A stretch of 64,000 nt of DNA from Sphingobacteriales bacterium (GTDB lineage Bacteria > Bacteroidota > Bacteroidia > Chitinophagales > Chitinophagaceae), in the NCBI GenBank assembly GCA_016200915.1, contig JACQDV010000050.1, forward strand, positions 1 to 64,000. Direction: 5' to 3'. Within the stretch, counting starts at the first letter, position 1; the number at the start of each line of letters is the position of its first letter. This document shows positions 44,074-44,373 of the stretch, in pieces. Below the pieces are notes generated by a model. That model made no database searches, had not been told where the DNA came from, and saw only the letters and a program-made list of their open reading frames with translations. The position numbers and the translations under genes are program-made.

Positions 44074-44337
44074 ATGACTTATCATGTTTATATTCTCTAC
44101 TCTCAATCAAAGAACAAATATTACATTGGTTACACAGGAGACTCTTTAGACGAAAGATTAAGGAAACACAATTCAAATCATAAAGGTTTTACAGGTAGAA
44201 CAGGTGATTGGCAAATAGTTTACACAGAAAAATATTTAACTAAGCAAGAAGCTTATAAAAGGGAAAGAGAAATAAAATCATGGAAGAGCAGAAAAAAGAT
44301 TGAAGCAGTGATTGGTTTAGGGCATCCCGATTTATAA
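44074..44337 (+). CDS. GIY-YIG endonuclease whose C-terminus lies in a tRNA remnant
   Basis: An 87-residue protein made of one GIY-YIG domain: [19 protein letters not shown] (both strands of the motif), RLRKHNSN with the catalytic arginine region, and [10 protein letters not shown] with the metal-binding glutamate. It should nick or cut DNA. The last nine codons, IGLGHPDL-stop, are encoded by the tRNA-Val remnant at 44312-44373: the stop TAA is in the remnant's anticodon loop, where C was changed to T compared with the degenerate copies upstream. It lies 33 bases downstream of the intact tRNA-Val. I recall GIY-YIG genes with tRNA-like tails elsewhere in Bacteroidota, which suggests a recurring tRNA-associated element. 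Confidence 0.88.
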
Positions 44338-44373
44338 TCGGGAGGGTCGGCGGTTCGACCCCGTCAACTCCCA
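44312..44373 (+). pseudogene. 3' half of tRNA-Val with altered anticodon arm
   Basis: From the D-loop (TTGGTTTAGGGCAT) to the 3' end this matches the intact tRNA, except the anticodon arm, which is CCCGA-TTTATAA-TCGGG as in the degenerate copies but with anticodon TAT. The 5' acceptor strand is absent, being replaced by the GIY-YIG gene. T-arm and 3' acceptor are intact. Confidence 0.85.

Follow-up and report, generated by a model that had tools for sequence, protein, structure and literature searches.

A gene for a small GIY-YIG nuclease that stands directly behind a tRNA gene and runs at its end into a broken copy of the same tRNA raises the question of what kind of genetic unit it belongs to and how this unit arose. 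We analyzed this locus in a window of 64,000 nucleotides (positions 1 to 64,000 of contig JACQDV010000050.1 from a Sphingobacteriales bacterium), in which ARAGORN and Rfam found a single functional tRNA, tRNA-Val(TAC). The features of the locus are as follows:

43821-43876, + strand: first 5' remnant of tRNA-Val, with hairpin TCCCGATTTACAATCGGGA at 43849-43867 (sequence)
43902-43941, + strand: second, shortened 5' remnant of tRNA-Val, with the same arm, CCCGATTTACAATCGGG (sequence)
43967-44042, + strand: functional tRNA-Val, anticodon TAC (ARAGORN; Rfam RF00005, 70.1 bits)
44047-44068, + strand: terminator-like hairpin CCCCCGAAATCGGGGG and T run between tRNA-Val and the GIY-YIG gene, with the ATG close behind (sequence)
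44074-44337, + strand: GIY-YIG nuclease ORF of 87 aa, C terminus GHPDL followed by the stop (PF01541)
44312-44374, + strand: 3' remnant of tRNA-Val (tRNA positions 16-76), overlapping the end of the ORF (Smith-Waterman)
44325-44343, + strand: hairpin TCCCGATTTATAATCGGGA in place of the remnant's anticodon arm, with the TAA stop inside it at 44335-44337
44380-44400, + strand: terminator-like hairpin CCCGCAATAGCGGG and T run behind the 3' remnant (sequence)

The whole arrangement, from the functional tRNA-Val through the 3' remnant, spans 43967-44374. A preliminary description of this locus had the ORF end inside the anticodon arm of a tRNA-Val copy, and this was borne out: 44312-44374 aligned to the functional tRNA-Val with a Smith-Waterman score of 78.8, compared with 24.0 for the best of 100 shuffles. 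The remnant is identical to the functional tRNA over most of its length, apart from the TCCCGATTTATAATCGGGA arm, whose loop holds the TAA stop of the ORF. The ORF had also been said to replace the 5' half of this copy; a tRNA copy does lie downstream, but only its first 15 nt are absent. As described, the CCCGA/TCGGG arm is present in all three remnants and absent from the functional tRNA. Both upstream 5' copies read TTTACAA in this arm where TTTATAA stands here, from which a C-to-T change had been proposed to create the stop. The difference in sequence holds, but the link has no demonstrated meaning because the ORF does not include the upstream copies. The congener G001 carries three upstream 5' copies of tRNA-Val with this arm, compared with two in the window.

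The encoded protein belongs to the GIY-YIG superfamily. PF01541 matches residues 3-75 of 87 with an E value of 1.5e-15, AlphaFold gave a confident GIY-YIG fold (pLDDT 88), and the conserved Tyr, Arg, and Glu are present; in an alignment of 29 proteins, Y4, Y15, G17 (the Gly of YIG), R26, H30, and E62 were invariant. Among the top Foldseek folds, none with an E value below 0.001, the UPF0213 structures 1zg2 and 1ywl ranked first and second and stood with Slx1 ahead of I-TevI and UvrC. Profile comparison matched 1zg2 and 1ywl with E values of 5.1e-14 and 7.4e-13. Thus, in its best sequence and fold matches and its single minimal GIY-YIG domain, the protein is a member of the standalone Slx1-like/UPF0213 group. 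In Escherichia coli, yhbQ, whose product we take to be a member of the same group, is followed by yhbS, and no tRNA is annotated in the 1-kb stretch there. Purifying selection acts on the gene: dN/dS was 0.14 between the window gene and its G001 ortholog and ranged from 0 to 0.27 in the 11 of 15 pairs with an estimable dS. In the relevant passages of a 2006 survey, 1zg2 and 1ywl are placed in the Slx1 family, apart from homing endonucleases and UvrC, an MTase neighborhood is mentioned for Slx1-like genes, and no tRNA-gene neighbors are mentioned in the three places where tRNA is spoken of (PMC1564403). The survey's text on the HEase/UvrC lineage gives a conserved C-terminal Asn as its mark (PMC1564403). 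No such Asn was found in the alignment of 29 or, by eye, in 71 C termini; the proteins therefore fall outside the classical homing-enzyme lineage, though they are homing-element-like in behavior. Slx1 acts on branched DNA (title of PDB 6seh), and a hairpin- or cruciform-guided mechanism is therefore plausible.

The layout recurs in the source genome, which has 11 PF01541 matches. Eight are small standalone GIY-YIG genes, and the remaining three are frames of 606 and 469 aa and a partial match in a 161-aa frame (L011, no tRNA in the locus). Six of the eight small genes adjoin a tRNA gene, each a different one (Met, Asp, two different Val genes, Leu-CAA, and Arg-CCG), and each of the six has a damaged copy of its tRNA across the gene.

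Small GIY-YIG genes near tRNA genes had been predicted for Bacteroidota at large, and they were found there: a same-strand ARAGORN tRNA call lay within 250 bp of 68/113 genes in a family set, 42/78 in a phylum set, and 69/80 in a set of named genomes (the best 80 of 255 loci). Opposite-strand calls within 250 bp numbered zero in all three sets. A second copy of the same tRNA was present across the gene in 62/68, 38/42, and 62/69 cases, together 162/179, and the other 17 linked genes had no detectable tRNA copy on the other side. The nearest ARAGORN call was itself a remnant, with a hairpin or an odd anticodon, in 5/68 family cases, no phylum case, and 14/69 named cases, where "other copy" means the whole tRNA or a tRNA piece; a hairpin-free call lay within 250 bp of 65, 42, and 62 genes, respectively. 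The spacers between tRNA and GIY-YIG gene in relatives were terminator-like in 106 of 113 distinct cases, by a lenient criterion that 41 of the 113 pass even when shuffled.

The family set consists of the small matches listed together with the source genome's own and congeneric ones; matches weaker than about 1e-10 are not among them, and five small listed matches, one match within a frame of 1380 aa, and a contig-end fragment of 39 aa (L018) were left out. The phylum set, 78 genes from 48 loci, is part of the listed profile matches and includes two regions twice (L159/L169 and L160/L173, six genes double); without the doubled regions, 40/72 genes lay near a tRNA and 37/40 had a copy across the gene. 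The named genomes were found with a Val-type alignment, and the titles of the best 80 of their 255 confirmed loci are those of Bacteroidota save three with other names. This set overlaps the family set at L186/L045 and L246/L110, each pair having contigs of equal length.

The protein tree is short (74 columns), with many forks unresolved and L015 on a long branch of unsure placement. On it, the tRNA isotype changed 21 times, compared with 40-49 times in 200 shuffles (64 loci, one row each, with Ile-TAT relabeled Val, "Stop" relabeled Lys, and array-only rows left out), and the linked/unlinked state changed 5 times, compared with 16-28 times in shuffles (92 rows). All Arg-CCG rows (6), Glu rows (3, from two genomes), and Ala rows (3, from two genomes) grouped together. 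Most Met and Leu-CAA rows did the same, with L040 (Met) and L007 (Leu-CAA) standing apart, so that isotype fidelity is imperfect. In general, subfamilies show a preference for particular tRNAs.

A clade of 29 small GIY-YIG rows (98% SH-aLRT) served as an internal control, as 0/29 lay within 250 bp of a tRNA (five of the 29 are close to contig ends). Rfam reached no family's threshold over 20 loci of this clade. Their flanks exceeded shuffles in direct repeats at 14/26 loci, in inverted repeats at 15/26, and in either at 19/26, and a REP/RAYT-like partnership of this clade with its flanking repeats is possible. The repeats are often palindromic, such as CGTCATTGCGAGGAACGAAGCAATCT or GTCATTTCGAACGAAGTGAGAAATC; repeat-flanked genes are L002, L019, L021, L025, L042, L046, L058, L065, L067, L075, L076, L080, L084, L087, L088, L093, L095, L097, and L113. 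Outside this clade are 84 family rows, of which 68 lie within 250 bp of a tRNA and nine more within 900 bp, mostly in arrays. For the other seven, tRNA pieces missed by ARAGORN are visible by eye at L071, L085, L086, and L105, L031 is the last copy of an array, L059 lies at a contig edge, and L034 is without trace.

Tandem arrays reach 8 copies. L037 and L064 are arrays with several tRNA calls, part of those at L064 carrying a hairpin. L166 (G126:C34:5500-11500) consists of eight units of about 364 bp, each a GIY-YIG gene with a tRNA-Met-like remnant, and no whole tRNA was called there. At L100 (G057:C1:4957340-4959884), L012, L211, L212, and L234, the remnants are cloverleaf-like enough to give odd ARAGORN calls (such as a TTA "stop" anticodon, Ile-TAT, Met-CAT, or Cys-GCA), and remnants could give rise to false tRNA annotations. 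Several drafts also have small GIY-YIG loci of both kinds near contig ends (for example, L024, L025, L056, L139, and L155), as if repeats broke the assemblies, an impression without statistics.

Occupied and empty alleles of the same site show what an insertion changes. At tRNA-Met, G001 is empty and has a single tRNA followed by terminator GCCCCGCAAAACGGGGC. In G000, GCCCCGCAAAACGGGGC sits behind the remnant, whereas the whole tRNA is followed by a different terminator and then the gene. Thus, the remnant derives from the original 3' end, and the tRNA received a new end that the element brought with it or duplicated; this is what gives the insertion its polarity. The extra stretch of about 360 bp in the occupied allele consists of the GIY-YIG gene, a terminator, and tRNA sequence, with no integrase in it. 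The tRNA-Leu(CAA) locus is empty in G001, occupied by a GIY gene on the 3' side in G000, and occupied by a different, stop-riddled GIY gene on the 5' side in G002. Broken copies with stops are also present at L008 and L015. Counting cases in which a copy was detected and the nearest tRNA was clean, a gene with its tRNA upstream had a downstream copy reaching the tRNA 3' end in 111/124 and failing in 13, and a gene with its tRNA downstream had an upstream copy reaching the tRNA 5' end in 19/23 and failing in 4.

Empty sites with an intact tRNA, which the preliminary description had called for, were thus obtained at tRNA-Met and tRNA-Leu(CAA) in G001, but the window locus itself gave none: in G001 the site is occupied, the 81%-complete genome of G002 had no matched orthologous locus, and in other genera (26 Mur-ligase orthologs, two at contig starts being left out) the upstream stretch examined contained neither a tRNA nor a GIY gene in any of 24 orthologs. 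In G001, about 8 kb on contig C4 separate the tRNA-Val (L049) from the GIY gene (L012). This stretch seems inserted in the same tRNA-Val gene, with a tRNA 3' half left just before the GIY-YIG gene, and similar tRNA 3' halves upstream of the GIY-YIG gene were seen by eye at L071 and L085.

The hosts also include structured RNA genes other than tRNAs. G127 (L163) and G138 (L175) each yielded a single RNase P RNA gene, and in both its P3 stem-loop holds a GIY-YIG gene, flanked in G138 by the arms of a perfect 24-bp inverted repeat in P3. The congener G111 is empty at rnpB, with a short P3 hairpin and a small loop, and its flanks are near-identical to those of G127. The Rfam match to rnpB begins just behind the gene, and the 5' strand was therefore placed before the gene by alignment to G111 and pairing by eye. 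At both tRNA-Met and rnpB, the occupied allele has an interruption or replacement of a site that the empty allele has intact, a whole tRNA also remaining, and in the two aligned occupied/empty pairs the insertion borders are those of the tRNA or P3 itself.

Adjacency with strand bias, same-tRNA copies, isotype-tracking clades, and empty sites together strongly support the proposal of a small tRNA-targeting GIY-YIG element with its own altered arm. The anticodon arm did not prove to be the general site: other families have their hairpins in the D-loop or T-loop, and one element sits in RNase P RNA. Clean inserts of at least 8 nt were present in 79 of 157 remnants (genes of identical sequence removed). 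By rough position classes without a chance model, the 106 inserts fell in the T-loop (28), the D-loop region (27), the anticodon loop (13), and elsewhere (38), and 41 were palindromic at p≤0.05. A 20-bp palindrome, CCTGCCTGCCGGCAGGCAGG, is common to different loops of Leu and Arg tRNAs. In the family set, four hairpin motifs occurred at 10.7 per 10 kb around linked genes, compared with 0.38 around unlinked genes.

The CCCGA/TCGGG-type arm does recur in remnants from many Bacteroidota, as had been expected. A Val/Arg-TCT-type arm, T[CT]CCG...CGG[GA]A, was present in 71 remnants with positions changed yet paired; since pairing was used in selecting them, they are informative only in how varied the pairs are. 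The loop of this arm mostly measures 2-6 nt, and most such copies therefore cannot present a normal anticodon loop. The special role suggested for a stop codon in the anticodon loop did not survive this comparison: the stop overlaps the hairpin in only 17/71 remnants, comes before it in 51 and after it in 2, and is not reached in 1. As a conserved device it was rejected, and it is otherwise incidental. In the 4.5-Mb source genome, the TCCCGA..TCGGGA hairpin occurs 12 times (reversed control pattern, 1), five of them at the two tRNA-Val GIY loci; this low number disfavors widely dispersed palindromes as the sole cause. Remnant 3' ends had a likeness of 0.90 to their own neighboring tRNA and 0.73 to the tRNAs of other species (n=36; remnants were included if they aligned to their own tRNA, a selection that raises the former value), which suggests, from sequence likeness, gene conversion or recent formation. 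We favor the reading that the hairpin is the one stretch kept different by selection, since it would disable the target.

Several known systems resemble parts of this picture. Integrative elements that use tyrosine recombinases at tRNA genes also leave one whole tRNA and one partial copy after insertion. The elements described here differ in the lack of an integrase from the ~360-bp tRNA-Met unit, in having both 3' and 5' layouts, and in their hairpin-broken copies. REP/RAYT and Rickettsia palindromic elements are small palindromes inserted in genes, sometimes with a partner nuclease, the partner being a Y1 (HUH) transposase or unknown, whereas the hairpins here are concentrated around tRNA-linked GIY-YIG genes. 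By behavior, the closest system is SegB of T-even phages. In the passages on SegB, it is a free-standing GIY-YIG homing endonuclease of phages T4 and T6, with its gene between tRNA genes (PMC2988022, PMC13096335) and inherited preferentially (PMC2988022); it makes cuts inside tRNA genes and causes tandem amplification of tRNA-segB, which counters a tRNA-cleaving defense in phage T6 (PMC13096335). The GIY-YIG gene beside tRNA genes and the tandem tRNA-nuclease repeats are thus shared features. SegB is phage-borne, whereas the elements here are chromosomal, single-domain, isotype-tracking, and of another protein lineage. They also have a replacement tRNA end and a hairpin-broken tRNA copy, the latter unmentioned in these passages on SegB (PMC2988022, PMC13096335).

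A phage or plasmid origin was considered and rejected. tblastn with the window protein gave no match in the phage and plasmid sequence sets, and three scans of viral contigs gave two, one, and no loci, of which L134 and L269 lie at contig ends and L135 is a weak partial match. L269 (IMGVR_UViG_3300027819_000412, 1-700), on a viral contig possibly from outside Bacteroidota, has a GIY-YIG gene and then a large palindrome that directly adjoins a tRNA gene whose anticodon, read by eye, is TTT. Among the literature matches listed, with preprints and most subscription journals outside the scope, no description of tRNA-linked GIY-YIG elements of bacterial chromosomes was found. Here, we have a widespread family of mini-elements, apparently undescribed, inserting into Bacteroidota tRNA genes.

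The feature is real, recurrent, and mobile-looking, and its layout, tRNA specificity, strand bias, insertion polarity, patchy presence, and purifying selection are directly supported. It is probably a minimal mobile element whose Slx1-lineage nuclease would cut tRNA genes and which would spread by recombination through tRNA homology; we infer both steps, as well as the repair, homogenization, and hairpin protection that go with them. An element of about 300-400 bp would comprise a tRNA 3' part that keeps the tRNA whole, a terminator, the GIY-YIG gene, and a hairpin-broken 3' copy, and its mirror-image form a 5' remnant, the gene, and then the whole tRNA. The nuclease would cut an unoccupied copy of its own tRNA gene, and the break would be repaired from the occupied locus; because both cassette ends are tRNA sequence, tRNA homology alone would be enough for this repair. 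The recipient would thereby gain the gene and a broken copy and still have one working tRNA. The hairpin would mark a disabled target, so that the copy beside the gene would not be recut, and the rest of the broken copy would be homogenized with the working tRNA. Unequal repair would give tandem arrays.

Several points speak against homing. The intact tRNA next to the gene should itself be a target for cutting, unless cleavage seldom happens or depends on context beyond the tRNA, and breakage by a hairpin only is a curious means of disabling a target. The nearest solved relatives are of the UPF0213/Slx1 type and not of the I-TevI homing lineage, and the 87-aa protein has no separate DNA-binding domain for choosing one tRNA gene. 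In addition, 17/179 linked genes have no detectable copy, polarity failed in 13/124 and 4/23 cases, isotype fidelity is imperfect, and the genomes compared gave no empty site for the window locus.

A rival reading is a nuclease that acts on hairpins or cruciforms in the manner of REP/RAYT systems, with palindromes inserting into the stem-loops of RNA genes, the gene riding inside such hairpins, and the tRNA remnants being landing pads. Slx1 is among the nearest solved structures. The clean and often palindromic inserts (79/157 remnants; 41/106 inserts), the occurrence of CCTGCCTGCCGGCAGGCAGG in different loops of two tRNAs, the perfect inverted repeat around the gene in the G138 P3, and the repeats, many of them palindromic, flanking 19/26 loci of the tRNA-free clade fit such a nuclease. 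Even so, we consider it unlikely, since the TCCCGA..TCGGGA hairpin is not widely dispersed (5 of 12 at the tRNA-Val GIY loci), the borders in both aligned pairs are those of the tRNA or P3 itself, and the protein clades track the tRNA isotype.

Purifying selection and the tandem arrays, some with several tRNA calls (L037 and L064), could also be explained if the gene were domesticated and kept as host-beneficial, either keeping and amplifying tRNA loci (gene conversion, dosage, or escape from tRNA-cleaving defenses) or processing the tRNA transcript; the amplification by SegB against such a defense in phage T6, as the relevant passages describe it, would be a precedent (PMC13096335). This seems to us improbable: presence is patchy between congeners with clean empty sites, copies at L008 and L015 are broken, the corresponding tRNA-Leu locus of a congener holds another GIY gene, and a selfish element is simpler. 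Least credible, and very improbable, is that the gene is passive cargo or debris of tyrosine-recombinase elements for which tRNA 3' ends are ordinary att sites. Insertions at the same tRNAs do occur, as in the ~8 kb of G001 that end in a tRNA 3' half, and tRNA 3' halves precede the gene by eye at L071 and L085, but the tRNA-Met extra stretch holds only the gene, a terminator, and tRNA sequence, and the mirror-image 5' remnants, isotype-tracking clades, hairpins, and rnpB insertion misfit att-site integration.

If the minimal mobile element is the right reading, it would account for puzzling tRNA pseudogenes and for GIY-YIG proteins with tRNA-encoded C termini, and it would mean that essential RNA genes can host a nuclease gene of about 300 bp and suffer no evident harm. 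RNase P offers a striking case: in two genomes, the one RNase P RNA gene that was found appears to carry a nuclease gene in its P3 loop. We put forward tentatively, and with some doubt, that these are a new class of mobile element: minimal, structure-guided nucleases of Slx1 lineage homing into the stem-loops of genes for structured RNAs (tRNAs of many different isotypes and RNase P RNA), carrying a replacement RNA segment so that the host RNA still works, with hairpins immunizing the leftover copy. Homing that needs tRNA homology only could therefore cross species, which we offer as a suggestion. With a match to the profile of these proteins in 95 of 148 Bacteroidota genomes sampled, they may be among the commonest mini-elements of the phylum.
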